DNA of 64,000 nt from Arthrobacter echini (GTDB taxonomy: Bacteria; Actinomycetota; Actinomycetes; Actinomycetales; Micrococcaceae), in contig NZ_SSWH01000008.1 in NCBI RefSeq assembly GCF_004803505.1, positions 62,001 through 126,000 on the forward strand, read 5' to 3'. The notes beneath the pieces were generated by a model. It ran no database searches, was not told the DNA's origin, and saw nothing but the letters and a program-made list of their open reading frames with translations. Made by a program: the position numbers and the translations under genes. This document shows, piece after piece, positions 7,544 through 62,994 of the stretch. The first letter of the stretch is position 1, and each line of letters opens with the position of its first letter.

Positions 7544-7549
7544 TAGATT
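7544..7549 (+). promoter_or_regulatory. -10 box of photolyase, leaderless start
   Basis: TAGATT ends 6 nt before the ATG at 7556, with no Shine-Dalgarno sequence. The alternative GTG at 7550 would touch the -10 box and cannot be in the mRNA. Confidence 0.65.
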
Positions 7550-7555
7550 GTGTCC

Positions 7556-8947
7556 ATGGCTGTGACACTCGTGTGGTTCCGTGACGATCTGCGTATCTCC
7601 GACAATCCGGCCCTCGCGGCCGCAGCGGACAGCGGGGACGACGTCGTCGCCTGCTACGTGCTGGACGAGGAGACCGAGGGCATCCGTCCGCGGGGCGGCG
7701 CCTCGAGGTGGTGGCTGCACCACTCCCTCGCGGCCCTGACCGCAACCCTCGAGGACCTCGGCATTCCCCTCGTGCTCCGTCGGGGCGCGGCCGCTGAGGT
7801 CCTGCCCCGACTCGTCGACGAGTGCTCGGCCCACGCCGTCGTCTGGAACCGCCGCTACGGACTGGCGGAACGCACAGCGGATGCCGCAGTGAAGACGGCG
7901 TTCTCCGAGAACGGCATCTCCGCCACGAGCTATCAGGCCAATCTGCTGTACGAGCCGTGGGAGGTGACCTCGGGAACGAAGGAGCCCTACAAGGTGTTCA
8001 CGCCCTTCTGGCGGGCGTGCCTGACTTTCCGTACGCCCCGTAGACCGCTTCCCGCCCCTGACACACTGCACGGACCACGGCTGGATTCCGAGGGGCTCGA
8101 CGACTGGGCCCTGCCGCCCACCGAACCCGAGTGGATCCGCGGCCTGCAGGAGACCTGGACGCCGGGGGAAGCGGGCGCCCAGGAGCGCCTCGACGACTTC
8201 CTCGACAGCGGAGCCGAGGGCTACAACGAGAATCGGGAGCGACCGGGCATGCAGAGCACCAGCATGCTATCCCCGCACCTGCGCTTCGGCGAGATCAGCC
8301 CCTTCGAGGTCTGGCACGCCGCGCAGGACCACAAGGACACCTCGACGGCCCACGATATCCGGGCCTTCGGATCGGAACTGGGCTGGCGGGAGTTCAGCTG
8401 GCAGCTGCTGTACTTCAACCCCGATCTAGCCACCGTCAACCATCGCAGCGAATTCGACGCCTTCGCCTGGGAGGACCCGACGACGGCGGATCTCTCCGCG
8501 TGGCAGCACGGGACCACCGGCTATCCGCTGATCGACGCCGGGATGCGCCAGCTCCACGGGATCGGGTGGATGCACAACCGCGTGCGCATGGCCACGGCAT
8601 CCTTCCTGATCAAGAACCTCATGATCGACTGGCGCGTGGGTGAGAAGTGGTTCTGGGAACGCCTCGTGGACGCCGACCCGGCGTCCAATGCGTTCAACTG
8701 GCAATGGGTGGCCGGATCGGGCGCCGATGCCAGCCCCTACTTCCGCATCTTCAACCCGGTGCTGCAGAGCAGGAAGTTCGACCCGGAGGGCAGGTACCTC
8801 CTGCGCTTCGTTCCTGAGCTCACGGAGGCGGACAATCTGCATGAACCGTGGAAGGGATCCGCTCCCGGCTACCCCGAGCCGATCGTCGATCTCAAGGAGA
8901 GTCGCGAACGCGCGCTGAGCGCGTACAAGGCCCTGCCGAAGAGCTGA
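7556..8947 (+). CDS. phrB: Deoxyribodipyrimidine photolyase
   Basis: 463 residues from the ATG at 7556 (a GTG two codons earlier is ruled out by the -10 box). The N-terminal Rossmann-like antenna domain begins TLVWFRDDLRISDNP. The C-terminal FAD domain shows the class I signatures WMHNRVRM and the block NAFNWQWVAGSGADASPYFR, residues that hold FAD and the flipped dimer. The enzyme uses blue light to split cyclobutane pyrimidine dimers. Cryptochromes share the fold, but the intact motifs favour a CPD photolyase. It stands alone, with terminators on both sides. Confidence 0.94.
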   Translation: MAVTLVWFRDDLRISDNPALAAAADSGDDVVACYVLDEETEGIRPRGGASRWWLHHSLAALTATLEDLGIPLVLRRGAAAEVLPRLVDECSAHAVVWNRRYGLAERTADAAVKTAFSENGISATSYQANLLYEPWEVTSGTKEPYKVFTPFWRACLTFRTPRRPLPAPDTLHGPRLDSEGLDDWALPPTEPEWIRGLQETWTPGEAGAQERLDDFLDSGAEGYNENRERPGMQSTSMLSPHLRFGEISPFEVWHAAQDHKDTSTAHDIRAFGSELGWREFSWQLLYFNPDLATVNHRSEFDAFAWEDPTTADLSAWQHGTTGYPLIDAGMRQLHGIGWMHNRVRMATASFLIKNLMIDWRVGEKWFWERLVDADPASNAFNWQWVAGSGADASPYFRIFNPVLQSRKFDPEGRYLLRFVPELTEADNLHEPWKGSAPGYPEPIVDLKESRERALSAYKALPKS

Positions 8948-8958
8948 GCCGTTCGAGG

Positions 8959-8999
8959 TCCTCGAGCACCGCAGCCTGGCAGGGCCCGGTGCTCGAGGA
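8959..8999 (+). terminator. Hairpin terminator after phrB
   Basis: A 13-bp perfect inverted repeat (8959-8971 with 8987-8999) with a 15-nt loop, starting 11 bp after the phrB stop. Confidence 0.75.
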
Positions 9000-9017
9000 T
9001 CTCCAGCGTCACACGAA

Positions 9018-9053
9018 GAAGTCCCGGTCAACCCTGGGGTCGACCGGGACTTC
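9018..9053 (-). terminator. Hairpin terminator after initiator tRNA
   Basis: A 12-bp perfect stem (9018-9029 with 9042-9053), 6 bp past the 3' end of the tRNA in its direction of transcription. Confidence 0.75.
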
Positions 9054-9059
9054 CATTCG

Positions 9060-9133
9060 TTGCGGGGACAGGATTTGAACCTGTGACCTCTGGGTTATGA
9101 GCCCAGCGAGCTACCGAACTGCTCCACCCCGCG
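9060..9133 (-). tRNA. Initiator tRNA-fMet (anticodon CAT)
   Basis: 74 nt without an encoded CCA. The acceptor arm CGCGGGG/CCCCGCA leaves a C1-A72 mismatch, and the anticodon stem has three G-C pairs (GGG...CCC) around CTCATAA. Both are hallmarks of the initiator tRNA rather than elongator tRNA-Met or tRNA-Ile2. The T loop reads TTCAAAT. It starts translation with formyl-methionine. A hairpin terminator follows immediately. The UPF0182 gene lies downstream on the same strand. Confidence 0.95.
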
Positions 9134-9217
9134 GCGTGTTCCCAACGTTACCGGGCGGGGGGTCGAGAGGCAAATCGCACAGCCCCCTCGACCCCCCCCC
9201 GCCCGGCACTCATCCAG

Positions 9218-12200
9218 CTACTCGGTCCCTGCCGAGACGCGCTCTTCCGCGTCCAGCGCCCGCTGCAGTGCATCCTGCAGCCGGTCCTGGGCCTCGCCGT
9301 AGGCAGCGAAGTCATTGGCGGACAGGGCGGCATTGCCGTCCTGGATGGCCGCGTTCGCGTCATCCAGGGCCGCGCGCAGGTCGGCCGCGGGATCGTCCGT
9401 CGTCCCGCCGGGTGCACCGGCTTCGGAGGGAGCAGGCGCCGGCGTCGGTGTGGCCTCGGGCGCCGGTGTGTCACCGTCGGCTCCAGCCGGCGGTGCGGCG
9501 GGATCGTCCGGTGTCGCCCCGACGTTCTCCTCGTCGCCCGCGGTCGCTCCCGAGTCGCCACCGAACACCTGGTCCAGCGCCTCGTCGAGAGTCGGCGCGA
9601 AACCGACGTTGTCACCGAAGCTCACCAGGACCCGGCGGAGGACCGGGAAGGACGAGCTACCGGAAGACTGCACGTACACCGGTTGCACGTAGGCGATGCC
9701 GCCACCGATCGGCAGTGTCAGCAGATTGCCGTTGATCACCTCGGACGCTCCCTGGCGCAGGAGGTTCAGCTGCTGCGACACGGTGGTGTCCGAGTTGAAG
9801 AGGTTCTGCGCCTGGCCCGGGCCGACCACGGAGTCCTGCCCGGAGGTGTCCAGCAGCCTCAGTCGACCGTAGTTCTCGTTCTTGACCCCGTCCTCACCCG
9901 TTCCTGCATCGCCGTTGGCGGCCAGGAAGCCGTAGAGCACGTTCCTGGGCGTCTGTCCGGTGGGCACGTAGGGAATGTAGGGCGTGGTCAGCGAGAACGC
10001 GGCCTCCTCCTGCTCGTCCGCCTCGTCGATCGGCGGCATCTGCAGCGTCAGATAGAACGGCGGCTGACGCGGGGTCTGCGCCGTCGTCGCGCCATCGGTG
10101 CTCTCTCCCGGATCTGCCGGTACGCTCCAGGCCTCGCTGTTGTTGTAGAACTCGTTGGTCGCCGTGACGTGGTAGCGGGCGAGCAACTCGCGCTGCACCT
10201 TGAAGAGGTCCTCGGGGTAGCGCACATGGGCCAGCAGATCCGCGGACATCTCGCTGTAGGGCCTGAGCGATGACGGATACACGTTCTGCCACGAGAGCAG
10301 CACAGGGTCCTGGTCGTCCCAGGCGTAGAGATCGACCGAACCGTCGTAGGCGTCCACGGTGGCCTTGACCGCATTCCGGATGTAGTTGACCCGGTCCGCC
10401 GGCAGTGCCGTCGCGAGCCCCTCCTGGGTCCGGGAATCCTGTGTCGCCGATTCCAGTTCCTGCTCCGTGGAGTAGGGGAAGTTGGGGCTGGTGGTGTAAC
10501 CGTCGATGATCCACTTCACGCGACCGTCCACGATGGCGGGGTAGCTGTTGCCGTCGAGGGTGAGGTAGGGGGCTACCTTCTGGACCCGCTCCACCGGGTC
10601 CCGATCGTAGAGGATCTGCGACTCGCCGTTGACCTGATCGGACAGGAGCAGGTCCGTGGACTGGAACTTCAGGGCGTAGACCAGCCGGTTGAAGGGGTTC
10701 CCGACATCCGGGCCGCCATCGCCGGAGAAGGTCGTCCTCGAATCCGTGTCGGAGTTCTCGTCCTGTGGCCGGTCGATCTCCGCCGCGTCCTGGCCCTCAG
10801 GAGCTCCCACCACGGAGTAGTCGGGCGAGGCCTCGCCGAAGTAGATCCTGGGCTCGTAGGTCGACTCGTCGCCGAGCACGCCGGTGGAGGGGATACCCGA
10901 CTGCAGGAATCTCGGCCGCCCATCGGGCTGGACCGTCGTCCCGGCCGCCGCGACCACACCGTAGCCGTGCGTGTAGAACACGTGCTCGTTGACCCAGCCG
11001 TCGGGCACACCGCTCGTGTCGAGTTCGCGCACCGCGATGACGGTGTCCACGATGTCGTCGTCGATCTCGTAGCGATCGACATTCAGTGTCTCCGGGAACT
11101 GGTAGTACTGACGGAACTGCTGCAGCTGGCTGAAGGCATCGGAGACCAGATTGGGGTCGAGCAGGCGGATGTTCGCCGTGGTCTCCCCGTCGTCGTTCAG
11201 GGCGCCTGCGACGGGGGTCGACTCCGGGTCGTAGGCGGACTCCTCGACCTGGTCGAGGCCGTAGGCCTCCCGCGTGAGCTCGATGTTCCGGTCGATGAAC
11301 TCGCGCTCGCGGGAGAGCTCGGACGGCACCACCTGGAAGCGCTGCACGACGGCCGGGTAGACGCCACCGGCGAGCAGAGCGGTGACGATCAGCATCGCGG
11401 TCCCGATCAGGGGCAGTCGCCAGCGCCCGATGAACGCCGAGACGATGAACAGGATGGCGACGATGACCGCTGCGGCGGCGAGGATCGCCTTCGTCGGGAT
11501 GACGGCATTGACGTCGGTGTAGAGGGCTCCGGCCCACCTCTCCTGGTTCAGGAGGGTGCCGTAGCGGTCGAGCCAGTAGTTGATGCCCTGCAGGATGAGG
11601 AACAGCGCCACGACGACGGCGATCTGGATCCGCGCCGCCTTGGTGGTGAACAGGCCCTTCTCCTCGAGCCTGATGCCGCCGTAGAGGTAGTGGGTGAGGA
11701 TCGTGGCAATGGCACTGATGATGACCACGCTGATCAGGAAACCGGTGATGAACCCGAGGAACGGCAGGGTGAACATGTAGAACGAGTAGTCGAGGCCGAA
11801 CTGGGGATCCTGACGGCCGAACTGCTCCTGCCGGAGGAAGAGCAGCACTTCCTGCCACTGCGACGACGCCGCGGTTCCCGCGAATGCTCCCAGCACAGCC
11901 GGTATGCCGAGCATCAGGAGCCGGCGGATCGGCTCGAGCTGGGCCTGGTACCGGTTCAGATTGTCCTGGATGGCGCTGTCGGGAGCGTAGATGGGTCTGC
12001 TGCGGTAAGCGATGCGCAGGCTCAGGTACACCGCCCCGGCCATGATCAGGAAGGCTGCGAGGAACAGCGCTATCCGCGTGAGATTCTCGGTGACGAAGAC
12101 CTCGAGGAAGCCCAGCTGGTTGTACCAGAGGACATCCGCGTACACCTGCGACAGATACACGAAAGCGATGACGATGATCGCCACGACGATGATCGTCGGT

Positions 12201-12283
12201 ATGAGCGGATTGCGGCGCCGGTTGGCCGGCCTTCGTGGTGTGCTCGGGCTACTGCCGAACGGACGGTCTGGTCCGGTTGTCAC
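9218..12283 (-). CDS. UPF0182 family large integral membrane protein
   Basis: 1021 residues, the usual size of the actinobacterial UPF0182 (COG1615) family. The first third holds about seven hydrophobic helices, the first at about residues 27-47 and the last near 325. A large soluble, probably extracytoplasmic region follows, then a Pro/Ala/Thr-rich low-complexity stretch (about 900-955) and a short helical C-terminus. The GTG start has a GAGG ribosome-binding site 5 bases away. The family has no assigned function. In mycobacteria it also sits beside a YlbL-like protease, as here. Confidence 0.93.
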
Positions 12284-12528
12284 ATATACCTCATCGATAG
12301 GTGCTGCGGGTCACGATGACAGGACTGCTGTCCCGCGCTCCGTCCCGGGTACGGGGCGCAGTAGCGTGAAGTCACGCCCTTCGTGCTCTCATTCTGCCCT
12401 CTTCACGTCCGGGCCTCCCAATTCGGTTCCATGAGGTGCCACAACGGCGCTGATCGTCACCCAACCGTGTCCTGCCGCTTGTCGACCGGAGAGGTGCCGC
12501 ACGGCGTCCGACGGCGCATCCTGGTCGG

Positions 12529-13623
12529 TCAGCAGGATGCCAGCTCTGCTGCGTCGCCGCCCTCCCCCAGTGTCCTCACGGCCTCGACCGCCTCGTCGAG
12601 TGTCGCGACGCTGACGACCGTCAGCCCCTCCGGGATGTTCCCGATGACCTCGTCACAGTTCTCGGTGGGAGCCAGGAAGAACTCCGCACCACCGGCGCGC
12701 GCTCCGATGAGCTTCTGCGCGATCCCACCGATCGGCCCCACCGAGCCGCCCGAATCGATCGTCCCTGTCCCGGCGAAGTGCCGGCCGCCGGTCAGATCGC
12801 CCTCGGTGAGGGTATCGATGATCCCGAGCGCGAACATGGTGCCCGCCGACGGCCCCCCGACGTCGTCCAGCTGGATCGTGACGTCGAAGGGGAAATCGAA
12901 GGTGGACGCCAGCAGGACCCCGAGCTGGTAGTCGCCCTCGTCGGACTCCTTCGGCACCACGGACACCTCACGCGGTGTGCCGTCGCGGACGACGGTAAGC
13001 TCGACCGCTGCTCCACCGCCATCGTTCAGCGCCTCCCGCAGCGTGTCGATCGCGTCGATCTCCCCGCCGTCGATCGACCGGAGCACGTCACCTTCCTGCA
13101 GGAGCCCCTCCGCGGCGGAGTCGGGGCCCAGACCCACGACCGAGAGCTCCTCCGTGTAGTCGATGTCCTCGTGGGACAGGGCCGCTGCGATCGCGGATTC
13201 CTGGGACGAGGTCATTGCCACGGCGTTCTGCTCCTGCAGCTCGCTGGAGGTCGTGCCCTCCGGATAGACGAGCTGCTCGGGAAGGACGTCCTCGTCCGGA
13301 TCCGCCCAGGCCCGGATGGTGTCGAGGACGTTGACCTGTCCGTTGGGGCCGCCGCGGACGAAGACCGTCGTCAGATCGAGCTCGCCGTCGGGCGTGAACG
13401 TCTCCGCGCCGTCGATCTGGATGAGCGGATCTCCGTCCACCTCGCCGATGGTGTTGAAGGTCGGGCCGGGGGCCTCCAGAACGTAGGGAGAGGGCAGGAG
13501 GACGGCCGCGGCAGTGAGGACGAGGGCGAGTCCGCCGGAGACGGCCATGACCCGGAAGCGCGGGTCCCTGGGCTGCTCCGGCCCACGGGAGTCGGTGGTC
13601 TCGGCCTGGGCGAACTGCGTCAC
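12529..13623 (-). CDS. PDZ-domain Lon-like serine protease (YlbL family)
   Basis: 364 residues from a GTG at 13623, with GAGAAG just upstream. In-frame codons further upstream precede the putative promoter. A membrane anchor lies at about residues 27-45, then a PDZ domain in the middle and a C-terminal peptidase S16 domain. The catalytic Ser is in GGPSAGTMF and the Lys in AQKLIGAR, the Ser-Lys dyad of Lon. It lacks the Lon ATPase, so it is an ATP-independent membrane-bound protease. It is followed on the same strand by UPF0182 after 245 bp and is divergent from the DUF2342 metalloprotease. Confidence 0.92.
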   Translation of the reverse strand: MTQFAQAETTDSRGPEQPRDPRFRVMAVSGGLALVLTAAAVLLPSPYVLEAPGPTFNTIGEVDGDPLIQIDGAETFTPDGELDLTTVFVRGGPNGQVNVLDTIRAWADPDEDVLPEQLVYPEGTTSSELQEQNAVAMTSSQESAIAAALSHEDIDYTEELSVVGLGPDSAAEGLLQEGDVLRSIDGGEIDAIDTLREALNDGGGAAVELTVVRDGTPREVSVVPKESDEGDYQLGVLLASTFDFPFDVTIQLDDVGGPSAGTMFALGIIDTLTEGDLTGGRHFAGTGTIDSGGSVGPIGGIAQKLIGARAGGAEFFLAPTENCDEVIGNIPEGLTVVSVATLDEAVEAVRTLGEGGDAAELASC

Positions 13624-13938
13624 GGGTCTTCTCTCTGTCGTAAGGTCGGGGCGGAGCGCGAGCACCGGGCCGGCACACCCAGCCTAGACGCTCCGACCTC
13701 GTGGGTTGCTGGACGATTCCTGCATGCCGGCCCTGGACCGCTGATCCACACCTGCACGCGGACACGCGCGTCGGCCTGCACCGGTTGCTCTGCCCTCAGC
13801 GGTTTGCCCTCAGCGAACTGCCCGTGACCTGAAGCGCACTGCGGTGCCCGGCCCGGTAGCGTGGTGACGACAGCCGGCAGCGCGGGGCAGTCCCGCCCGA
13901 CCGGACCCGCCAAGCTATCCCCAGGATCGGTGGTATCA
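13624..13938. promoter_or_regulatory. Divergent promoter region, ylbL-like protease / DUF2342 gene
   Basis: 315 bp without a gene. On the minus strand TAGGCT at 13681-13686 is a candidate -10 for the protease (leader about 50 nt). On the plus strand TAGCGT at 13857-13862 is a candidate -10 for the metalloprotease (leader about 70 nt). An 11-bp direct repeat, TGCCCTCAGCG, occurs at 13791-13801 and 13805-13815, a possible regulator site upstream of the plus-strand promoter. Confidence 0.45.
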
Positions 13939-15441: not shown

Positions 15442-15473
15442 CGCCGGGATGAATCCGATCGCCAGGTGGCAGG

Positions 15474-15504
15474 AGACACGCGAGCGGTGGTCCGTCGCGT
15501 GTCT
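15474..15504. terminator. Bidirectional hairpin between convergent genes
   Basis: A 10-bp stem (15474-15483 with 15495-15504) and an 11-nt loop, lying between the stops of the DUF2342 gene and the YgjP-like gene. It can serve both. Confidence 0.7.
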
Positions 15505-19207: not shown

Positions 19208-19213
19208 ACGGTA
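19208..19213 (-). promoter_or_regulatory. -10 box of nudC, leaderless start
   Basis: On the minus strand TACCGT ends 6 nt before the nudC ATG at 19201, with no Shine-Dalgarno sequence. Confidence 0.65.
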
Positions 19214-19337: not shown

Positions 19338-19343
19338 TACCGT
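19338..19343 (+). promoter_or_regulatory. -10 box of the phosphotransferase, leaderless start
   Basis: TACCGT ends 7 nt before the GTG at 19351. GGAGGG also lies in between, but only 1 nt from the GTG, too close for normal use. The same hexamer drives nudC on the other strand about 125 bp away. Confidence 0.55.
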
Positions 19344-27996: not shown

Positions 27997-28002
27997 ACAC
28001 TA
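27997..28002 (-). promoter_or_regulatory. -10 box of the ATL gene, leaderless start
   Basis: On the minus strand TAGTGT ends 7 nt before the ATG at 27989, with no Shine-Dalgarno sequence. It is back-to-back with the exonuclease -10 box 56 bp away. Confidence 0.6.
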
Positions 28003-28057
28003 GGCCGGAGTGTTGCGACTGTCGGAGCGGAATCCTCGATTGGTCGGCAGCCACCGG

Positions 28058-28063
28058 TAACGT
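28058..28063 (+). promoter_or_regulatory. -10 box of the exonuclease gene, leaderless start
   Basis: TAACGT ends 6 nt before the ATG at 28070, with no Shine-Dalgarno sequence. Confidence 0.65.
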
Positions 28064-41985: not shown

Positions 41986-42163
41986 GCCCCCGATTCTGCC
42001 GAAGATCCCGACGGATCGTTAACCGGCCGTGGCGCCCCTGGGCACCGGCCGCACCGCCCGTGGCCAACATCACCCCACCATCCAGGAGGCTGGTTCCGCG
42101 GAACGACGCGGGAGTCTGCTGCGGGTAAGGACCACCTATCTCCTGAACAGGGGGCGTTCTCGG

Positions 42164-42169
42164 TATGCT
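42164..42169 (+). promoter_or_regulatory. -10 box of hemA, probable leaderless start
   Basis: TATGCT ends 9 nt before the GTG at 42179. GAAGGG is in between but only 2 nt from the GTG, too close to act as a normal ribosome-binding site. Confidence 0.5.
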
Positions 42170-42178: not shown

Positions 42179-43546
42179 GTGGTACTTCTTTCACTTGTAG
42201 CGACACACTCGGATGTAGACCTGGAGACCGTTGCCCGACTCAGCGTCGGGGCGCCCCAGGTCCCTTCGGTGGTGCTCGCCGACGACAAGACGGTGTCGGG
42301 CGCCGTCGTACTGGCCACGTGCAACCGCTTCGAGATCTACGCCGAGGCCCCGTCGGAGGACGACGTCGAAGCTGCGCGCTCCGCGATCGTCTCGACGATC
42401 AGCGAGTACTCCGGTATCTCCGAGCAATCCGTCGCCGCGTCCTTCCGGACGCACACGGGACAGGACGTCGCCGAGCACCTCTTCGCCGTCGGCGCCGGTC
42501 TCGACTCCGCCGTCATCGGTGAACGGGAGATCGCCGGACAGGTCCGGCGTGCCCTCATCGAGGCGCAGGGTTCCGGTGCGGCCAGCGGCTCCCTGGTACG
42601 TCTGTTCCAGGCCGCGTCGAAGACCGCGAAGGACGTCGGCGCACAGACCGCCCTCGGTTCGCGCGGGCGCTCCATCGTCTCCGTGGCACTCGACCTCGGC
42701 GGTGACGTCTCCACGGATCCCGACTGGTCCCGTAAGTCGGTCGTTCTGTTCGGTACCGGAGCCTACGCCGGCGCTACGGTCGCTGCCCTCAAGGAACGGG
42801 GCTGCACCGACATCTCCGTGTTCTCCTCCTCGGGCAGGGCCGAGGCGTTCGTCGCATCGCGCGGGGGCACCGCCGTCACGGCCGAGGATCTGCCGGCTGC
42901 CATGCAGCGAGCCGACGTCGTCATCGGGTGCAGCGGCAGCGATGCCCGCATCGACGCCGCCGACATCGAGCGGGTCCGTCAGGGCAGCACGTCGTCGTTG
43001 GTCGTCATCGACCTGGCCCTCAGCCATGACTTCGACCCGGCGGTCGGACTGCTCGACTACGTCGAACTGATCACCCTCGAATCCGTCCGCGCCGCAGCTC
43101 CCGAGGAACAGGCCGATGCGCTGACCCAGGCGAACGATCTGGTACGCGACGCGGCCCGCTCCTTCGAGGAACAGCAGACCATACGCGCCATGAACGCCTC
43201 GATCGTGGCACTGCGCCAGCACACCCAGGCGGTCCTGGAATCGGAGATGGCGCGCGTGCGGGCCCAGCACGGGTGCACTGCCGCCGCGGACGAGGTGGAG
43301 TTCGCTCTGCGCCGCATGGTGCGCCAGCTCCTGCACGTCCCGACAGTGCGTGCGCGGGAACTCGCCGCCGAGGGACGTCAGCAGGACTATGAGGCGGCTC
43401 TCGAAGCCCTGTACGGGATCGATGTCCCGCACGCCGCTGCAGCTGGGCCTGCGTCGAACGAGCAGGCCACCTCGAAGCCGAAGCGCTCCGGGCCCGAGAG
43501 CGCGCAGTGCCCCGTGGACCACGAGCCGCCCGCGCGCGAGGCCTGA
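42179..43546 (+). CDS. hemA: Glutamyl-tRNA reductase
   Basis: 455 residues from the GTG at 42179 ([15 protein letters not shown]). It reduces glutamyl-tRNA(Glu) to glutamate-1-semialdehyde, the committed step of heme synthesis. The catalytic Cys is in [13 protein letters not shown] near residue 50. GERE/QV follows at about 120, the NADPH fold with [12 protein letters not shown] comes near 185, and a helical dimerisation domain ends the protein. The C-terminal 40 residues are a disordered Pro/Ser-rich tail. It is divergent from hemE and the other heme genes, so both arms share a 193-bp control region. Confidence 0.96.
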
Positions 43547-44909: not shown

Positions 44910-44915
44910 AGGGTA
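44910..44915 (-). promoter_or_regulatory. -10 box of moeZ, leaderless start
   Basis: On the minus strand TACCCT ends 5 nt before the ATG at 44904, with no Shine-Dalgarno sequence. Confidence 0.5.
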
Positions 44916-46762: not shown

Positions 46763-46768
46763 AGAGTA
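46763..46768 (-). promoter_or_regulatory. -10 box of the ferritin-like gene, leaderless start
   Basis: On the minus strand TACTCT ends 7 nt before the ATG at 46755, with no Shine-Dalgarno sequence. Confidence 0.6.
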
Positions 46769-50779: not shown

Positions 50780-50785
50780 AATCTA
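50780..50785 (-). promoter_or_regulatory. -10 box of the PHP gene, leaderless start
   Basis: On the minus strand TAGATT ends 6 nt before the GTG at 50773, the same hexamer and spacing as photolyase and gluA. Confidence 0.65.
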
Positions 50786-53544: not shown

Positions 53545-53550
53545 TAACCT
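53545..53550 (+). promoter_or_regulatory. -10 box of the MgtE-like gene, leaderless start
   Basis: TAACCT ends 6 nt before the GTG at 53557, with no Shine-Dalgarno sequence. The ATG codon right after the GTG may instead be used. Confidence 0.6.
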
Positions 53551-54840: not shown

Positions 54841-55429
54841 GAGAATCAGATCCAGTTCCAGCGGGCTGGACACGCCCCGCGAGAGCCGCATGCGCCTTCT
54901 TCCACGCCTGCGCCCGAACCCGGACGCGTTCGGCAGCGCCACGGAGAACTTCGCGCGGTTCATGGGTACCCCGCAGTTCCTCTTCTACATGAGCGTGTTC
55001 TGCGCGGTCTGGCTGTTGTGGAACACCCTGGCGCCGGAGAGTCTGCGCTTCGACAGCGCTGCGATCGGCTTCACCCTCCTCACTCTCATGCTCTCGCTCC
55101 AGGCCTCCTACGCCGCTCCCCTGCTGCTCCTGGCGCAGAACCGGCAGGACGACCGCGACCGCGTCTCGCTCAAGGAGGACCGTCAGCGGGCGGAACGCAA
55201 CCTCTCCGACACCGAGTACCTCACGCGCGAGATCGCCGAGCTGCGCATCGCGCTGCGCGACGTGGCCACACGTGACTACGTGCGCTCGGAACTGCGCTCG
55301 GTCCTCGACGAGGTCCTGGAGACAGCGGACGGACAGGACGTGCTGCTGCAGAAGCGCAAGCCCCGCAAGCCCTCCGATGCCACGACGTCCGTGCCCAGGG
55401 TCCAGCCCGCGGGGAGGCAGTCGCAGTGA
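54833..55429 (+). CDS. DUF1003 membrane protein
   Basis: 198 residues, GTG start overlapping the MgtE-like gene by 8 bp. Two hydrophobic segments (about 47-65 and 78-102) form the DUF1003 core. The N-terminal 35 residues are basic, and a cytosolic coiled-coil (about 110-165, with KEDRQRAERNL and EIAELRIALRD) follows. The function is unknown. The layout (short membrane hairpin plus coiled coil) beside a soluble MgtE-type sensor suggests the two proteins meet at the membrane. Its stop overlaps the mrp start by 4 bp. Confidence 0.88.
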   Translation: MVERIRSSSSGLDTPRESRMRLLPRLRPNPDAFGSATENFARFMGTPQFLFYMSVFCAVWLLWNTLAPESLRFDSAAIGFTLLTLMLSLQASYAAPLLLLAQNRQDDRDRVSLKEDRQRAERNLSDTEYLTREIAELRIALRDVATRDYVRSELRSVLDEVLETADGQDVLLQKRKPRKPSDATTSVPRVQPAGRQSQ

Positions 55430-56556: not shown

Positions 56557-56600
56557 GCGAGGGCGTCCGGGGGGGGTGTTCTCCGACCGTGCCGGTCCGC

Positions 56601-57017
56601 CTAGGTGGCTTCGAGGTCGTAGGGTGCGCTCTGGCCCGGTTCGAGCCGGGGACGCAGCGGCACGGACGGTCCCGGGCGGGCGGAGGTGAGGCCCTCCGTC
56701 GCGGGAACCACGGCCGGTGCGGCTGCGGGCGCTCCCTTGCTGACCGGCTTGAACACGTCGTCCAGGTCGTCGAGGAGCGCTTCCTTGATGATGCGCCGCG
56801 GATCGTACTGACGCGGGTCCAGCTTGCGCCAGTCGACCTCGTCGAGTTCCGGGCCGATCTCCTCCCGTAGCTGCTCCCGGGCTCCGGTCGCCATCCGCTT
56901 GAGGCCCTTCACGAGCCGCGCCAGCTGCGCAGCGTACTCCGGAAGGCGCTCGGGGCCCAGTACCACGACGGCAATGAGGGCCAGGGCCACGAGTTCCAGT
57001 CCGTTGATTCCAAGCAC
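56601..57017 (-). CDS. tatB: Sec-independent translocase protein TatB
   Basis: 138 residues, GTG start at 57017, 6 nt from a -10 box. One N-terminal hydrophobic helix (LELVALALIAVVVLGPERLP) is followed by an amphipathic helix (YAAQLARLVKGLKRM), the TatA/TatB plan. The long C-terminal region and the GPERLP motif fit TatB rather than TatA. TatB receives twin-arginine substrates with TatC. The distal half is Pro/Ala-rich. It sits beside the anti-sigma factor and sigE, as in other actinobacteria. Confidence 0.9.
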   Translation of the reverse strand: MLGINGLELVALALIAVVVLGPERLPEYAAQLARLVKGLKRMATGAREQLREEIGPELDEVDWRKLDPRQYDPRRIIKEALLDDLDDVFKPVSKGAPAAAPAVVPATEGLTSARPGPSVPLRPRLEPGQSAPYDLEAT

Positions 57018-57023
57018 GGCAGA

Positions 57024-57029
57024 AGCCTA
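57024..57029 (-). promoter_or_regulatory. -10 box of tatB, leaderless start
   Basis: On the minus strand TAGGCT ends 6 nt before the GTG at 57017, with no Shine-Dalgarno sequence. tatB is therefore probably transcribed separately from sigE and its anti-sigma gene. Confidence 0.6.
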
Positions 57030-57096
57030 CCTTCCTGATCCGACCCGATCACATTCGACGGCAGTCACGGTATCGGACCCACCGACGGGATCGTGC

Positions 57097-58050
57097 TCAT
57101 GGGTCCTGCGGATGGACCATGATCGACAGCCCGCGCATGATGCGGTCGATCGTGGATCCGTTCCGGGGTTGCGCCACGGTCGGCAACTGCGCGTACTCGG
57201 TTGTGACCAATTGCTGGAGCGTCCGTGGCATGTCCGCCGGTGGGAGCTCGGAGACCACGGTATAGGTGGCAGACGACGAACGAAGTACGACCGTCCACGG
57301 CTCGCCGGAGTGGACCCAGAGGTCCTGCTGCAGGCCTCCCACATGCTCGAAGCCGTCCTCGGCAACGGTCCTGCCGGTGACCGCGTTCGTCGGCGGTGTC
57401 CTCCGGCGGCCGTCGACCGCGCGCTGTTCGTAGACGGTGACGCGGTCACCGTCGTGCTCGAGCACGAGCTCGAGCGTGGGCAGCCCGTCGATCGTCAGAC
57501 CTTCGGCGCTCCTGAGCGTGAGTCCGAGGGTCGTCAGGCCGGGACACGACCAGCCTTGGGTTCGAAGCACCTCCACCTGGTCCGCATCGAGAGCAGCCGG
57601 TGTGCCCCGGAACGTCTCTTCCCATCCGGCTCGCGGCGTCGTCGAACCCGCTTCCGCGCCGGCCGCGGGATCCGATCCGGAGCCGACGACATAGGCACCG
57701 GTCAGGACCGCGGCTGCCAGTACGGCCGAACCACCTGCCGCAGCTACGAGGCGGAGGCGGCGGGACGGCTTCGGCGAGGCGATGGTCGCGGCACGGTCCG
57801 GCTGGAGCCCCGGCCGGTCCGGCGCCGATCCTGTGCTGGGTCCGGGTCCGGTGGAGAGCAGTCGGCGCTGGAACTCGGGATCAGGGGATGGACTCCCGAG
57901 TCCCAGGAGCGTGCCCTTGTGTTCCCGCAACCCCCTCACGTCGTTCGAGCACGTGTCGCAGACCTGGAGGTGGTGCTCGACGACGGATCGCCGGCGATCG
58001 GACAACTCACCGTCCACGAGGTCCTGCAGCGATCGACGCGGGTGGAACAC
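57097..58050 (-). CDS. rseA: Anti-sigma factor with zinc-finger (RseA-type)
   Basis: 317 residues from the GTG at 58050, 5 bp after the sigE stop, with GTAGGGG upstream. The N-terminal anti-sigma zinc domain has HHLQVCDTC (His, Cys, Cys; the HxxxCxxC pattern). One membrane helix lies at about residues 100-125 (AAAGGSAVLAAAVLTGAYVV), and an extracytoplasmic region of 190 residues follows. It should hold SigE inactive at the membrane until envelope stress. The position after sigE is the usual arrangement for ECF sigma/anti-sigma pairs. Confidence 0.88.
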   Translation of the reverse strand: MFHPRRSLQDLVDGELSDRRRSVVEHHLQVCDTCSNDVRGLREHKGTLLGLGSPSPDPEFQRRLLSTGPGPSTGSAPDRPGLQPDRAATIASPKPSRRLRLVAAAGGSAVLAAAVLTGAYVVGSGSDPAAGAEAGSTTPRAGWEETFRGTPAALDADQVEVLRTQGWSCPGLTTLGLTLRSAEGLTIDGLPTLELVLEHDGDRVTVYEQRAVDGRRRTPPTNAVTGRTVAEDGFEHVGGLQQDLWVHSGEPWTVVLRSSSATYTVVSELPPADMPRTLQQLVTTEYAQLPTVAQPRNGSTIDRIMRGLSIMVHPQDP

Positions 58051-58055
58051 CGCCC

Positions 58056-58700
58056 CTACCCCAGACCGACGACCCGGGGCACGCCGAGCGTGGTGCCGCT
58101 GCCGGGGCGAGGGTCGCGGTGCGCGAGCTTGTCGCGGAGCATCGTGCGTCCGCGGTGGATCCGGGAACGCACGGTGCCGAGCTTCACGCCGAGCACACGA
58201 GCCACCTCGTCGTAGGCCAGTCCCTCGAGATCGCACAGGACGACTGCGGCTCGGAAGTCCGGTGGTAGCTCCTCGAGCGCCGCCTGCACGTCGACGTCCA
58301 GATTGTTGAATTCGAAGCTGCGCTCGGGCCCGGGGTGCCTGCTCGCCAGACGGCTCTCCGCCTCGTCCGACAGGCCGTCGAAGCGGATGCGGGTCCTGCG
58401 CCGGGCCTGATCGAGGAACAGGTTCGTGGTGATCCGGTGCAGCCAGCCGTCGAGCGTTCCCGGTCTGAATTTCGCCAGGGACCTGAAGACCCGCACGAAG
58501 ACGTCCTGGGTGAGGTCCTCGGCGTCGAACCTGTTGCCGGTCAACCGGTAGGCCAGTCGGTAGACCTTCGGTGAGTAGGTGGTGACGACGTCCTCCCACG
58601 AGGGCGCCACCCAGGGGTTGCCGTGCTCGTCCAGGACGGGCAGGTCCTCTCCGTCGAGGATGTCCACCTCCGGCTGTGGTGTTCCAATGCTAGACATCAT
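58056..58700 (-). CDS. sigE: ECF sigma factor (SigE)
   Basis: 214 residues from the ATG at 58700 with GAAGGGG upstream. Sigma-2 region LAYRLTGNRFDAEDLTQDV and sigma-4 region LPPDFRAAVVLCDLEGLAYDEVARVLGV and GTVRSRIHRGR are clear. There is no region 1 or 3, typical of extracytoplasmic-function sigma factors. The N-terminal 38 residues are an acidic extension. With the anti-sigma factor and TatB next to it, this matches the SigE envelope-stress locus known from actinobacteria. It is divergent from the O-methyltransferase, with 12-bp tandem repeats between. Confidence 0.93.
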   Translation of the reverse strand: MMSSIGTPQPEVDILDGEDLPVLDEHGNPWVAPSWEDVVTTYSPKVYRLAYRLTGNRFDAEDLTQDVFVRVFRSLAKFRPGTLDGWLHRITTNLFLDQARRRTRIRFDGLSDEAESRLASRHPGPERSFEFNNLDVDVQAALEELPPDFRAAVVLCDLEGLAYDEVARVLGVKLGTVRSRIHRGRTMLRDKLAHRDPRPGSGTTLGVPRVVGLG

Positions 58701-59077
58701 GTGCCCCTTCTCGCCTGAACTCCGGGAGCTGTCCTCACCGGGTCCGTCAGGGCCCGATCGGTGCTGGCAGTGATTCGGTACCGCTGTGCCGCCGGATGCC
58801 CGGTGCTGAAATACTTTCGCACCAAGCTGGGAACTGGCTGGCAGCGCCGAACGTACCGCCCGGACCGTCCCTCGTCGAACGCGATCCACAGGCCACCGCA
58901 CGGGTCACCGCACAGGTCACTGCACAGAGACCGGGTACGGGTCGGGCGGGTGGCACCCTTCGCGGAGCTTCCCGGCACAGTAATGTTGAACTGGGCTCCA
59001 ACTCCCCGCCGACCCCTGCTCTCCCGCGTCGCATCCGGCGCGCGTGGGAGCACGAAGCCGCACAACGAAGGAGAGTC
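58701..59077. promoter_or_regulatory. 377-bp divergent control region of sigE and O-methyltransferase
   Basis: No gene. It holds three 12-bp tandem repeats (58892-58927), a GGGAAC box at 58829-58834 with CGTA 17 nt later (a weak ECF-type promoter on the plus strand), and TAATGT at 58981-58986, the best -10 for the O-methyltransferase. A -10 for sigE on the minus strand is not obvious. Confidence 0.5.
58892..58927. repeat. Three 12-bp tandem repeats upstream of sigE
   Basis: Three units of consensus GTCACCGCACAG (58892-58903, 58904-58915, 58916-58927), each with 0-3 changes, and a more decayed fourth unit before them. The 12-bp spacing puts each site just over one DNA turn apart, as for a cooperative regulator. 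Alternatively it is a chance minisatellite. Confidence 0.7.
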
Positions 59078-59716
59078 ATGGCTGCCGACAAGCACAACAG
59101 CTGGTCCTACACGGAGGGCCTTCCCGAGGAGGACGACACCCTCCTGAGGGCACGGGACCGCTCCCACGAACTCGGTGTCACTGCTGTGACGCCTGCAGTC
59201 GGTGCGGCGCTGACCGTGCTCGCCGCCGCGACCAAGGCCGTCACCGCCGTCGAGGTCGGGGCGGGCGCCGGAGTCTCCGGCGTATGCCTCCTGAGGGGAC
59301 TCGGCCCGCAGGCGGTCCTGACCACCATCGACGCCGACGTCGATCATCTGCGGGCCGCACGTGAGGCGTACTCCGAGGCCGGCATCCCCTCGAACAGGAC
59401 CCGGACGATCTCCGGACGCGCCTCGGACGTGCTTCCGCGCCTGACGGACGCGGCCTACGACCTCGTCTTCATCGACGCCGACAAGGGCGGCCTGCCGGCG
59501 TACGTCGACCAGGCGACACGACTGCTCAAGGCCGGGGGAATGCTCATCATCAACGATGCCCTCGACCAGGACCGCGTTCCCGAACCCGCCGTCCGCGAGC
59601 CCTCGACCAACACGCTGCGTCAGGTCGGGAAACTGGTCCGCGACGACGAGTCCCTGGTCTCGGCACTCCTGCCGACGGGCACAGGGCTCCTGTTGGCGGT
59701 CAAGCAGCGCAGCTAG
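59078..59716 (+). CDS. SAM-dependent O-methyltransferase
   Basis: 212 residues from the ATG at 59078, with GAAGGAGAG upstream. The SAM-binding motif VEVGAGAGVSGVCLL and the acidic DLVFIDADKGG motif identify the catechol-type (methyltransf_3) O-methyltransferase family. There is no N-terminal extension, and the protein is cytosolic. It is divergent from sigE. From memory the mycobacterial gene next to sigE (Rv1220c) is also a methyltransferase, so the arrangement is conserved. The acceptor is unknown. Confidence 0.92.
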   Translation: MAADKHNSWSYTEGLPEEDDTLLRARDRSHELGVTAVTPAVGAALTVLAAATKAVTAVEVGAGAGVSGVCLLRGLGPQAVLTTIDADVDHLRAAREAYSEAGIPSNRTRTISGRASDVLPRLTDAAYDLVFIDADKGGLPAYVDQATRLLKAGGMLIINDALDQDRVPEPAVREPSTNTLRQVGKLVRDDESLVSALLPTGTGLLLAVKQRS

Positions 59717-59746
59717 TCGCGTGAGTGGCCCACCTCGATGAATCGA

Positions 59747-59778
59747 CGATCGGGCCCGCGCATCTGCGGTCCCGATCG
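59747..59778. terminator. Hairpin between O-methyltransferase and DUF3117
   Basis: An 8-bp stem (CGATCGGG at 59747-59754 with CCCGATCG at 59771-59778) and a GC-rich loop, between convergent stops. Confidence 0.5.
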
Positions 59779-59787
59779 CGGCACGGG

Positions 59788-59955
59788 TCAGGTCGTGACG
59801 GTGAGAAGGCAGTCCTTGAGCTTACCGGCTTCCTCAGCGTTGAGTTCCACCACGAGGCGTCCGCCTCCGTCGATCGGAACGCGCATGATCAGAGAGCGCC
59901 CTTCCTTGGTGACTTCCATCGGTCCATCGCCGGTACGCGGTTTCATGGCAGCCAT
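59788..59955 (-). CDS. DUF3117 small protein
   Basis: 55 residues from the ATG at 59955 (MAAMKPRTGDGPMEVTKEGR), with AAAGGGA as ribosome-binding site. An in-frame start upstream is ignored because the conserved protein begins here. It belongs to the DUF3117 family, tiny proteins almost fully conserved in actinobacteria. It has no signal peptide or helix of note and is basic at the start. It is of unknown function. It lies between the sigE block and the tag/DivIVA genes. Confidence 0.92.
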   Translation of the reverse strand: MAAMKPRTGDGPMEVTKEGRSLIMRVPIDGGGRLVVELNAEEAGKLKDCLLTVTT

Positions 59956-60186
59956 CGGGGAATCCCTTTCAACAGGGCGCACCCGCCAGCGGCGGACTGC
60001 GCGTCAGTAAACGGTGCTTCGTCCGGCTTCCCCCTGCGGGTCCGACGGAGCACATCATGCCCCTCATTATTCAGCACAAGTCGTGCACCTGCTAATTCAG
60101 GTGCGGCGCGCATCACACCGCGTGGAGCGCCCACGGGCTGTGGCCGACGGTGCCGGAACCGGTACGAGGCAGCCCGGCAGGGCAGC

Positions 60187-60825
60187 TCACCGATCGGCGG
60201 ATCGCCCGCAGATCTCGCCGCCTGGTGGATCCGCGCTCCCGCCGTCCGCGGGCCGGCCCCGTACCCAGCAGTCGCGGAGGTGGTCGTTCACGAAGCCTGT
60301 TGCCTGCAGCATGGCATAGGCGGTGGTGGGACCGACGAACCGGAACCCGAGTCGTCGCAACTCGTGCGCCAGGGCGGAACTGCCCGTCGTGCTCGCCGGT
60401 ACGTCCGCCAGGCTCACCGGCGCGGGGCCGGTCGGTGGTCGGTGCGCCTCGAGCACCGACCCGAGGCTCGTTCCCCCGGGCAGTGACAGCAGCGTCCGGG
60501 CATTGCTGATCGTCGCCTCGATCTTCCGGCGATTTCGGACGATCAGCGCATCGCCCATGAGCCGCTCCACGTCCCCGGCACCGAATCCTGCCACGGCGAC
60601 CGGGTCGAACGCGGCGAACGCGCGGCGGAAGTCGCTGCGCTTGCGCAGGATCGTGATCCAGCTCAGTCCCGACTGGAACGCCTCGAGGCTCAACCGTTCG
60701 AACAGTGCCTGCTCCCCATGGACGGCTCGGCCCCACTCCTCGTCGTGGTAGCGCTCGTACTCGGCGCTCGAGACGGCCCAGCCGCACCGCAGGAGACCGT
60801 CCGAGCCGGGAACGGCCGGTGTCAC
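60187..60825 (-). CDS. tag: DNA-3-methyladenine glycosylase I
   Basis: 212 residues, GTG start overlapping the DivIVA-domain gene by 4 bp. The fold is the TAG type, with RCGWAVSSAEYERYHDEEWG near the start, AFQSGLSWITILRKR, and the active-site block RFVGPTTAYAMLQATGFVNDH. It excises 3-methyladenine from alkylated DNA. A short Pro/Gly tail ends the protein. It is downstream of the DivIVA-domain gene in a two-gene operon. Confidence 0.93.
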   Translation of the reverse strand: MTPAVPGSDGLLRCGWAVSSAEYERYHDEEWGRAVHGEQALFERLSLEAFQSGLSWITILRKRSDFRRAFAAFDPVAVAGFGAGDVERLMGDALIVRNRRKIEATISNARTLLSLPGGTSLGSVLEAHRPPTGPAPVSLADVPASTTGSSALAHELRRLGFRFVGPTTAYAMLQATGFVNDHLRDCWVRGRPADGGSADPPGGEICGRSADR

Positions 60826-61208
60826 CTGACCATGCCCTGTTCCGTGAGGTGCAATCGCAGGTGCTCGATCTCCGCGTCGCGTTCGGCGATCGCAGCAGCC
60901 AGCCTGTCCAGGACCTCGTCCACCTGGTCCATCCGATAGCCCCTCATGCCGAGGCCGAACCGGACGGCGTCGACATCCTGCGCCGAGACGGAACCCGGCA
61001 GAAGTACCGGTGGCAGGGGCGCCACGGGCGCCACCAGACCGAGATCCTCGCGGATGACAGCGCTCCAGCCACCGGTCCTGCGCCCGGTTCCGTCCGCCGT
61101 CCGGCGCCTCGGCTTCAGGCCACCGGGTCGGCGAAGTGATCGCCCGGAGGCGATGACCGCGGTTCCCACCACCAGCAGGGCTGCGAGGATCACCAGGAAG
61201 ATAGTCAC
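60822..61208 (-). CDS. DivIVA-domain membrane protein
   Basis: 128 residues, GTG start. An N-terminal membrane helix (TIFLVILAALLVVGTAVIA) is followed by a basic linker, and the C-terminus holds a short DivIVA motif (RFGLGMRGYRMDQVDEVLDRL). DivIVA domains sense membrane curvature or bind the cell-division machinery. In this small form the domain is tethered by a helix. The actual role is unknown. It overlaps tag by 4 bp. Confidence 0.85.
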   Translation of the reverse strand: MTIFLVILAALLVVGTAVIASGRSLRRPGGLKPRRRTADGTGRRTGGWSAVIREDLGLVAPVAPLPPVLLPGSVSAQDVDAVRFGLGMRGYRMDQVDEVLDRLAAAIAERDAEIEHLRLHLTEQGMVR

Positions 61209-61241
61209 ACGATCATGGTGCCAGAAGGCTCCGCTGTGCCG

Positions 61242-62087
61242 TCACCGTCCGCTGTGGTCAGGCGTGGTCGGGGGGCCCGCGGAGTCCGCCATGATCCGTA
61301 CCGCGTCCTCCGCCGTGTCGACGAGCTGCAGCAGATCCAGGTCCGTCGCGGAGATGGTGCCCTCGGCCAGCAGGGTGCCCTCGATCCACGCCAGCAGGGG
61401 TTTCCAGTAGTCGATCCCGACGAGGACGATCGGGAAGGAGGTCACCTTGCGGGTCTGGACCAGGGTCATCGCCTCGAACAGTTCGTCGAGGGTACCGAAC
61501 CCGCCGGGCAGCACCACGAAACCGCTGGCGTACTTGACGAACATCGTCTTGCGCGCGAAGAAGTACCTGAAGTTCACGCCGAGATCCACCCACTCGTTCA
61601 TCCCGGCCTCGAAGGGCAGTTCGATCCCCAGCCCCACGGAGATCCCCCCGCCCTCACAGGCACCCTTGTTCGCCGCCTCCATGGTCCCCGGTCCGCCTCC
61701 GGTGATGACCGCGAACCCGGCTCCGACGAGGCGACGTCCGACCTCCTCCCCCATCGCGTAGTACGGGGACTGGCGGGGCGTCCGCGCCGATCCGAAGACG
61801 CTGATGGCGGGTCCGAGTTCCGCCAGCGCTCCGAAACCCTCCACGAACTCGCTCTGGATGCGCAGCACTCGCCACGGGTCGGTGTGGGTGAAACCGTTCG
61901 CACTGTCCGAGTCCAGCAGGATGTTGTCGGACTGAGGAGCGCCGGCCTGACTGCGGCGCAGGACCACCGAGCCCTTGCGCCGGATCGGCGGAGTCACTGT
62001 CGCGGTCGTGTCGTGATCTCCCGGTCCGGTGCCGGTCTGCTGGGAGGTGGCGCCGTCGTCGGCCGGTGATCGCTGGTAGGAGGACAT
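61242..62087 (-). CDS. LOG-family nucleotide 5'-monophosphate phosphoribohydrolase
   Basis: 281 residues, TIGR00730-type Rossmann fold. GGGPGTMEAANKGA and the PGGFGTLDELFE motif mark the active site of LONELY GUY-like enzymes, which release the base from nucleoside 5'-monophosphates. The ATG is 6 nt from a -10 box (62094-62099). The N-terminal 65 residues are polar and disordered. It is divergent from gluA. Confidence 0.92.
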   Translation of the reverse strand: MSSYQRSPADDGATSQQTGTGPGDHDTTATVTPPIRRKGSVVLRRSQAGAPQSDNILLDSDSANGFTHTDPWRVLRIQSEFVEGFGALAELGPAISVFGSARTPRQSPYYAMGEEVGRRLVGAGFAVITGGGPGTMEAANKGACEGGGISVGLGIELPFEAGMNEWVDLGVNFRYFFARKTMFVKYASGFVVLPGGFGTLDELFEAMTLVQTRKVTSFPIVLVGIDYWKPLLAWIEGTLLAEGTISATDLDLLQLVDTAEDAVRIMADSAGPPTTPDHSGR

Positions 62088-62093
62088 TCCCTT

Positions 62094-62099
62094 AGGCTA
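62094..62099 (-). promoter_or_regulatory. -10 box of the LOG-family gene, leaderless start
   Basis: On the minus strand TAGCCT ends 6 nt before the ATG at 62087. AAGGGA is in between but touches the ATG, too close for a ribosome-binding site. Confidence 0.6.
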
Positions 62100-62205
62100 A
62101 CCAACCCCGCCCGGCTGTCCGTGCGCTCCACGGGATCCCTGGTTGCTCTTGAATCACGATTGCCTCCTTTGCCTGGGCCCATGGTGCTGTTCCGCAATAG
62201 TTCGC

Positions 62206-62211
62206 TAGATT
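62206..62211 (+). promoter_or_regulatory. -10 box of gluA, leaderless start
   Basis: TAGATT ends 6 nt before the ATG at 62218, with no Shine-Dalgarno sequence. It is divergent from the LOG-family promoter, 107 bp away. Confidence 0.65.
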
Positions 62212-62217
62212 TCTCCC

Positions 62218-62994
62218 ATGACACCTCGAGCTCAGCCGACCGGATCCGCGACATCGGCGGGTCCCCTGGTCCGGCTGAAGAACGTCAACAAGCACTTCGG
62301 GGAGCTGCACGTGCTCCGTGACATCGATCTGGACGTCGCCCGCGGGGAGGTCGTGGTCGTCATCGGACCGTCCGGGTCCGGCAAGTCCACGCTCTGCCGG
62401 GCGATCAACCGCCTGGAGACCATCGACGACGGCGAGATCACGATCGACGGCGAGGTGCTGCCCGCGGAGGGGAAAGGCCTGGCCAAGCTGCGCGCCGACG
62501 TGGGCATGGTCTTCCAGTCCTTCAATCTCTTCGCCCACAAGTCCATCCTGGAGAACGTGACCCTCGGACCCATCAAGGTCAAGGGCATGAAGAGCGCCGC
62601 AGCCAAGGAGCTCGCCATGTCCCTGCTCGAGCGCGTGGGCGTCGACAACCAGGCCCAGAAGCTCCCCGCGCAGCTCTCCGGCGGCCAGCAGCAGCGCGTC
62701 GCCATCGCCAGGGCGCTGGCCATGCAGCCCAAGGTCATGCTGTTCGACGAACCCACCTCCGCCCTGGACCCCGAGATGATCAACGAGGTCCTCGATGCGA
62801 TGGTCGTCCTGGCCAAGGAGGGGATGACGATGATCGTTGTCACGCACGAGATGGGCTTCGCGCGGAAGGCCGCCGACCGCGTGATCTTCATGGCCGACGG
62901 CGAGATCATGGAGCAGGCCACCCCCGAGGAGTTCTTCACCAATCCGCAGAGTGATCGGGCCAAGGACTTCCTCGGCAAGATCCTCGCGCACTGA
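62218..62994 (+). CDS. gluA: Glutamate-type amino acid ABC transporter ATPase
   Basis: 258 residues. Walker A GPSGSGKS, the signature [15 protein letters not shown], Walker [13 protein letters not shown] and the H-loop VTHEMGFA are all intact. The closest family is the polar-amino-acid importer ATPase (GluA/GlnQ type). The first 18 residues are an extra Ser/Ala stretch. It is followed by the binding protein gluB, 55 bp downstream. Confidence 0.93.

Follow-up and report, generated by a model that had tools for sequence, protein, structure and literature searches.

Conserved TANNNT elements and predicted leaderless genes in a 64-kb stretch of an Arthrobacter genome

TANNNT elements upstream of 13 genes

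The stretch analysed here (the window; 64,000 nucleotides (nt), G000:C40:62001-126000) belongs to an Arthrobacter genome of 3.18 Mb in 41 contigs, with a G+C content of 68.8%. Our subject is a series of TANNNT hexamers just upstream of start codons, which we read as putative -10 promoter elements of leaderless genes. In a single scan of named genomes, the exonuclease encoded in the window had its best matches in Arthrobacter, namely in A. echini and in a metagenome-assembled genome of that genus (88% identity). A prediction made previously from the sequence (the original prediction) had placed a TANNNT ending 5-9 nt upstream of the start codon at 13 genes, and on the coding strand all 13 indeed have one, at or within a few bases of where it had been put. 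We define the gap as the number of nt between the last T of TANNNT and the start codon. As predicted, it is exactly 6 in eight of the 13 genes (phrB, nudC, exo, the PHP and MgtE-like genes, tatB, LOG and gluA); it is 7 at the phosphotransferase, ATL and the ferritin-like gene, 5 at moeZ and 9 at hemA.

The elements are listed below in window coordinates, with the number of compared congeners in which the motif is kept. For phrB this number refers to six congeners, the other six having no usable phrB match.

7544..7549, plus strand: TAGATT, candidate -10 of phrB (photolyase); gap 6, ATG 7556; kept in 6/6 usable congeners
19208..19213, minus strand: TACCGT, candidate -10 of nudC (NUDIX, zinc ribbon); gap 6, ATG 19201; kept in 12/12
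19338..19343, plus strand: TACCGT, candidate -10 of an APH-family phosphotransferase gene; gap 7, GTG 19351; kept in 12/12
27997..28002, minus strand: TAGTGT, candidate -10 of ATL (O6-methylguanine methyltransferase DNA-binding domain); gap 7, ATG 27989; kept in 9/12
28058..28063, plus strand: TAACGT, candidate -10 of an RNase_T-family exonuclease gene (exo); gap 6, ATG 28070; kept in 12/12
42164..42169, plus strand: TATGCT, candidate -10 of hemA (glutamyl-tRNA reductase); gap 9, GTG 42179; gap 9 kept in 12/12
44910..44915, minus strand: TACCCT, candidate -10 of moeZ (ThiF and rhodanese); gap 5, ATG 44904; kept in 8/12
46763..46768, minus strand: TACTCT, candidate -10 of a ferritin-like gene (Pfam MiaE_2); gap 7, ATG 46755; kept in 11/12
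50780..50785, minus strand: TAGATT, candidate -10 of a PHP-domain gene; gap 6, GTG 50773; kept in 12/12
53545..53550, plus strand: TAACCT, candidate -10 of an MgtE_N/CBS gene; gap 6, GTG 53557; kept in 12/12
57024..57029, minus strand: TAGGCT, candidate -10 of a TatB-like gene (tatB); gap 6, GTG 57017; kept in 12/12
62094..62099, minus strand: TAGCCT, candidate -10 of LOG (Pfam Lysine_decarbox); gap 6, ATG 62087; kept in 12/12
62206..62211, plus strand: TAGATT, candidate -10 of gluA (ABC transporter ATPase, Pfam ABC_tran); gap 6, ATG 62218; kept in 12/12

The gene names given originally are supported by Pfam matches to photolyase, NUDIX/zinc ribbon, APH, the O6-methylguanine methyltransferase DNA-binding domain (ATL), RNase_T, GlutR, ThiF/rhodanese, PHP, MgtE_N/CBS, Lysine_decarbox and ABC_tran. 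The TatB-like gene has no Pfam match, and the NCBIfam TatB models match it below their cut-offs.

Spacing, Shine-Dalgarno sequences and conservation

Genes were called with a simple coding-potential model (4th-order, 3-periodic) that is blind to promoters. The sequence used, 864 kb or 27% of the genome, consisted of the window together with a sample of 800 kb, and it yielded 726 genes. ATL was missed by the caller and is therefore absent from all called-gene statistics. Among the 726 genes, TANNNT is found at gap 6 in 69, at gap 7 in 23 and at gap 8 in five, with 0-2 genes at every other gap from 0 to 17. The comparison with shuffled sequence that had been proposed with the original prediction gave a mean of 2.5 and a maximum of 8 genes at gap 6 (200 dinucleotide shuffles). 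Restricted to the window, the count at gaps 5-8 is 10 among 50 called starts, against a mean of 0.9 and a maximum of 6 in 500 shuffles. Equal frequency before arbitrary start codons had been named as evidence that would speak against promoters; only 6 of 7,449 internal in-frame starts have gap 6. A genome-wide search for TANNNT-N6-ATG followed by C ten bases after the ATG found 99 sites and 40 in the reversed control. The spacing peak was seen again in two further samples, with gap 6 in 21 of 318 genes in 400 kb more of the same genome and in 32 of 357 genes in 400 kb of the congener G003.

Genes with TANNNT at gaps 5-8 after re-selection of starts (TA-led genes) number 141 of the 726. Shine-Dalgarno (SD) matches of at least five bases are found in none of these, in 169 of the 585 other genes and at 35 of 717 internal starts. 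The claim that none of the 13 genes has an SD sequence at normal spacing thus holds for matches of at least five bases and fails for four-base matches at hemA (AAGG at spacing 3) and tatB (AAGG, AGGT and AGGA at spacing 11-15). The phosphotransferase gene has a GGAGG only 2 nt from its start codon. In an alignment of 129 promoters, no -35 signal stands out.

To assess conservation, the corresponding region of 12 congeners was read (approximately 60 kb in each), and an in-frame start was accepted as orthologous if it lay no more than 60 nt from the projected position. TANNNT is present at gaps 5-9 in 142 of 150 orthologous starts, compared with 4/150 at gaps 12-16; for the remaining 38 called genes of the window, gaps 5-9 gave 9/342. 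The unusual gaps are kept as well: 9 at hemA in every congener, and 5 at moeZ in six of the eight congeners that have the motif.

Leaderless transcription and its alternatives

Sharp spacing, the absence of SD matches of at least five bases and conservation in congeners make leaderless transcription the best reading of these data, as originally proposed. We put the probability at about 0.92 that the 13 hexamers are -10 elements of housekeeping (sigma-A-type) promoters from which transcription starts on or next to the start codon, yielding leaderless mRNAs. RNA polymerase would start about 7 nt after the last T of TANNNT, so that gap 6 would place the transcription start on the first base of the ATG or GTG, and gaps 5 and 7 no more than about a base away. 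For hemA, the fixed gap of 9 suggests a leader of 2-3 nt. Ribosomes would initiate on the 5'-terminal start codon without an SD sequence.

The phenomenon itself is already established. Zheng et al. 2011 (PMC3160421) described TA-led leaderless genes of Actinobacteria, with TANNNT about 12 nt before the start and no SD sequence. The genes described here are the same in kind; what is added is an Arthrobacter example with conservation assessed gene by gene and the fixed unusual gaps of hemA and moeZ. In Mycobacterium tuberculosis, Cortes et al. 2013 (PMC3898074) reported a TANNNT -10 element centred 7-12 bp before the transcription start, with no -35 element, and 26% of the genes with a primary start as leaderless. 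The lack of a -35 signal is common to both sets, whereas transcription starts were mapped in that study and are deduced from sequence here.

Several observations do not sit easily with this reading. The gaps of hemA and moeZ deviate from the main spacing. Four-base SD matches occur in 20 of the 141 TA-led genes, which is close to the rate at internal starts (115/717; other genes, 316/585). The orthologue control at gaps 20-24 gave 24/150, through near-by alternative starts. Finally, the TA-led share varies by sample: 141/726 (19.4%), 40/318 (12.6%) and, in G003, 65/357 (18.2%).

The alternative that survives best is that the same promoters operate alongside others further upstream, such that leaderless and leadered mRNAs coexist and the leadered form dominates in some conditions. 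M. tuberculosis provides a precedent: for 47 of its genes, a start other than the leaderless one was reported as well (PMC3898074). SD-led translation of longer mRNAs is made less likely by the complete lack of SD matches of at least five bases in TA-led genes, and we consider this alternative improbable.

It is less likely still that the promoters are real and the true start codons lie further downstream, giving mRNAs with leaders and SD sequences. The coding-only caller did place the hemA start further downstream, at 42269, gave the phosphotransferase gene a different start (19342) and missed ATL; alignments of ATL and moeZ to some congeners begin only after residue 20. For most genes, however, the orthologues align from residue 1, and downstream starts would leave the constant gap to the start codon unexplained. 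GlutR_N begins at residue 8 of the TA-led hemA protein, corresponding to profile position 3, and a start at 42269 would truncate this domain. At the phosphotransferase gene the start is GTG 19351, since the GTG at gap 5 runs immediately into a TGA. The motif thus helps to fix start codons, as the original prediction had maintained, and starts misplaced by coding-only calling become settled. Chance, meaning loose TANNNT hexamers 5-9 nt before starts by accident or through AT-richer intergenic DNA, might be suspected from the 9,184 uncalled NTG triplets in non-coding DNA, which have TANNNT at 19-39 per gap and 59 at gap 6 (an excess whose follow-up covered alternative starts within called genes), but it is refuted for the set as a whole by the shuffles, the flat profile at other gaps and the motif kept at orthologous starts, even if a single site could still be accidental were its motif lost in relatives.

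With leaderless transcription as the preferred reading, the window yields a group of genes that are predicted to be leaderless and whose promoters are conserved, in a genus that can be cultured. As a separate observation at hemA, a CCTAT lies about 40 nt upstream of the gene (window 42134-42140), between it and a divergent uroporphyrinogen decarboxylase gene; by eye, it is found at the same offset in this genome and in 11 of the 12 congeners.

Frequency of TA-led genes

The density of such promoters in the window had been called notable; this was not borne out. Eleven of the 50 called genes of the window are TA-led, as are 130 of 676 elsewhere in the sample (one-sided Fisher p = 0.37; ATL, being uncalled, and hemA, with gap 9, left out). 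Adding ATL and hemA, for the window only, raises its count to 13/51. Sliding 64-kb stretches of the remaining sample contain 5 to 18 TA-led genes (155 overlapping stretches). The window is thus ordinary for its genome, and the genome is ordinary for its phylum: TA-led genes make up a mean of 19.2% of genes in Actinobacteria (range 2.3-29.8%) and were reported in 86 of 89 genomes (PMC3160421).

Candidate PafBC-type boxes upstream of phrB and exo

The original prediction had drawn attention to DNA-repair genes among those with TANNNT promoters. A partial explanation is available at phrB and exo, in the form of a PafBC-type box, and none for ATL. The RecA-independent (RecA-NDp/PafBC) promoter of mycobacteria has the form tTGTCRgtg - 8 nt - TAnnnT (PMC5656591, PMC6789036, PMC11804915), and its core, TGTCRG (GGTCGG at exo), lies 10 nt upstream of the same putative -10 elements:

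7528..7533, plus strand: TGTCGG, candidate PafBC/RecA-NDp-type box, 10 nt upstream of the phrB -10; exact core
28042..28047, plus strand: GGTCGG, candidate PafBC/RecA-NDp-type box, 10 nt upstream of the exo -10; one mismatch

At phrB (TGTCGG-N10-TAGATT), seven of the nine bases of the longer published box are present (by eye). No TGTCRG-N10 box was seen at ATL by eye in the upstream alignment, and ATL is not among the exact matches of the genome-wide search, ATL being outside the gene set scanned for one-mismatch boxes.

TGTCRG-N10-TANNNT occurs 18 times in the genome and once in the reversed control, and in nine of the 18 exact sites a start codon follows 6-9 nt after the -10. The genes behind the 18 sites include those for RadA, RecA (66-nt leader) and PcrA, all above NCBIfam cut-offs, Nei2 (below) and one further protein, which has a helicase C-terminal domain. 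The extended string TGTCRG-N10-TANNNT-N6-RTG was found 196 times over 33 genomes of the genus, this one among them, against 3 in the reversed control (summed tallies). Among 181 TA-led genes, the exact box is found at N10 in five, and once over the 15 other spacers from N4 to N19 (at N19).

The one-mismatch box of exo was examined in 33 distinct promoters (own included). Nearly all are from Arthrobacter, with one from Paenarthrobacter, one from Sinomonas and one from a record titled otherwise; 44 of 58 loci were used (12 distant or second matches, L157 and L158 were left out), of which one start was not found and 10 duplicates were dropped. The N10 box is present with at most one mismatch in 32 and exactly in nine, and at the other spacers from 5 to 15 just one promoter, at N14, comes within one mismatch. 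One member of the set, L139, is from a contig filed under the title Vibrio cholerae strain 35D. Its exonuclease region resembles that of Arthrobacter (80% identity), and the record is probably mislabelled or contaminated.

The genome contains a single open reading frame (ORF) with two WYL domains, encoding a 661-aa protein of fused PafBC type. Its best match in the PDB is 6sj9, named PafBC (E 2.5e-116), which is presumably the crystal structure of the naturally fused PafBC from Arthrobacter aurescens described in PMC6789036. Given the box and the encoded fused PafBC, two of the window's three repair genes, phrB and exo, are predicted to be PafBC targets, that is, damage-induced leaderless genes; ATL is not.

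Some of the data weaken the PafBC part of this reading. Several of the exact sites precede genes unrelated to repair (dapB-like, MFS-like and epimerase-like; names by eye). One-mismatch boxes among the 181 TA-led genes number seven at N10, seven at N4 and 0-4 elsewhere, and among all TANNNT of the same sequence there are 43 at N10 and 18-40 at other spacers. Because one-mismatch boxes are hardly commoner at N10, the case for exo rests on conservation. Besides exo, the seven one-mismatch N10 genes include one for a UvrB (identified on the first 406 aa and below the whole-protein cut-off) and one for a protein reading as UvrC (by eye); the uvrB and uvrC boxes are weak. With an exact box in 5 of 181 genes, PafBC fails to explain the leaderless set as a whole.

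Compared with the mycobacterial RecA-NDp/PafBC promoters, the core of the exact sites is the same and PafBC is encoded, fused as in A. aurescens. What differs is that the start codon often follows 6-9 nt after the -10 (9/18), so that box, -10 and start would form one unit. In PMC2897130, a leaderless lexA and the RecA-NDp promoter of another gene are treated separately, and a narrow literature search found no statement that RecA-NDp promoters drive leaderless genes. We regard the apparent fusion of a PafBC-type box to predicted leaderless starts as an addition worth keeping.

A box with one mismatch at tatB (GGTCGG) was rejected as a PafBC-type site, not being kept in the congeners compared. 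Outside the window, the gene of a 94-aa protein without a Pfam match (G000:C2:25192-25473, minus strand; L267:3193-3474) combines an exact PafBC-type box with a start of leaderless type; G001 encodes a similar protein behind the same promoter.

Divergent gene pairs

Of the 60 genes that belong to divergent pairs less than 100 bp apart in the first sample, 39 are TA-led, compared with 26 of 152 at 150 bp or more; the two further samples pooled gave 23/46 and 30/154, respectively. This may be mere geometry, because short regions leave little room for leaders. Three divergent pairs of the window have both genes of leaderless type: nudC/phosphotransferase (149 bp), LOG/gluA (130 bp) and ATL/exo (80 bp), the last being outside the pair statistics as ATL is uncalled. 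Pairs of this kind show no excess (17 against 13.6 expected, permutation p = 0.11), and one member does not predict the other. A cluster of them at 60-61 bp (5/17 in the first sample) was rejected as chance, the further samples having 0/3 and 0/6.

Outside the window, the divergent pair tadA/upp (Pfam deaminase and UPRTase) is separated by 23 bp in 23 loci and by 22 bp in seven. Overlapping putative -10 elements in the core CAATGRTACTTTTG are present in all 30 genus loci, own included (L235-L264, e.g. G003:C1:395018-395040; 34 genus genomes have a upp match, and 30 loci were read). In other families, TANNNT lies 6-8 nt before the upp start in 15 of 20 readable stretches (by eye; the other five did not match the search string).

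A second very short region, also outside the window, is seen at G000:C40:132795-132811 (L307), where NmrA-like and MarR-like genes lie 17 bp apart and the distance between their start codons is 18 bp (the match to MarR falls below its cut-off). The region is a near-palindrome in which one symmetric -10 (TACGATA, TAnnnTA core) would serve both genes; alternatively, it could be an operator of the MarR-like protein. As a general feature the shared symmetric -10 was rejected, being present in one of 33 genus genomes.

Bidirectional promoters with a symmetric -10 and divergent transcription starts 18 bp apart have been described (PMC10268837). Set against these, the NmrA-like/MarR-like pair has the TAnnnTA core, and tadA/upp has overlapping -10 elements. 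In both cases here the two mRNAs are predicted to be leaderless, so that the entire region between the starts amounts to 17 to 23 bp. Such very short divergent promoters, if leaderless as predicted, are an addition worth keeping.

We tentatively suggest, as a possibility somewhat doubtful at present, that part of the Arthrobacter PafBC regulon is leaderless in the form of a rigid unit of about 31 bp (-26 box, -10 and start codon), and that the same lineage uses shared divergent promoters of 17-23 bp. If so, damage genes would be translated without SD recognition, which could continue when SD-led initiation is impaired, and the lack of leaders would let divergent genes share a promoter that is the entire region between their start codons. 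Leaderless promoters would then be tied to a DNA-damage regulon whose activator has been solved structurally in A. aurescens, making SD-independent translation of repair genes testable.

A 37-residue ORF outside the window

Upstream of a THAP4/nitrobindin-like gene lies a 37-aa ORF (G000:C38:74110-74220, minus strand; L272:3211-3321) whose sequence is of membrane type and whose promoter is of leaderless type. It has no Pfam match, and its NCBIfam matches, all of them weak, are to other small membrane proteins. Its N10 box is exact in 3 of 22 promoters and within one mismatch in 9 of 22; we rejected it as a general PafBC target, and a link to the PafBC box appears to be kept for part of the genus only. 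The ORF is encoded in 33 of 33 genus genomes (own included; 78-100% identity); across the order, 55 of 119 genomes gave a match at E <= 0.01, in some cases a weak one. It is apparently leaderless, as all 22 promoters read have TANNNT at gap 6-7.

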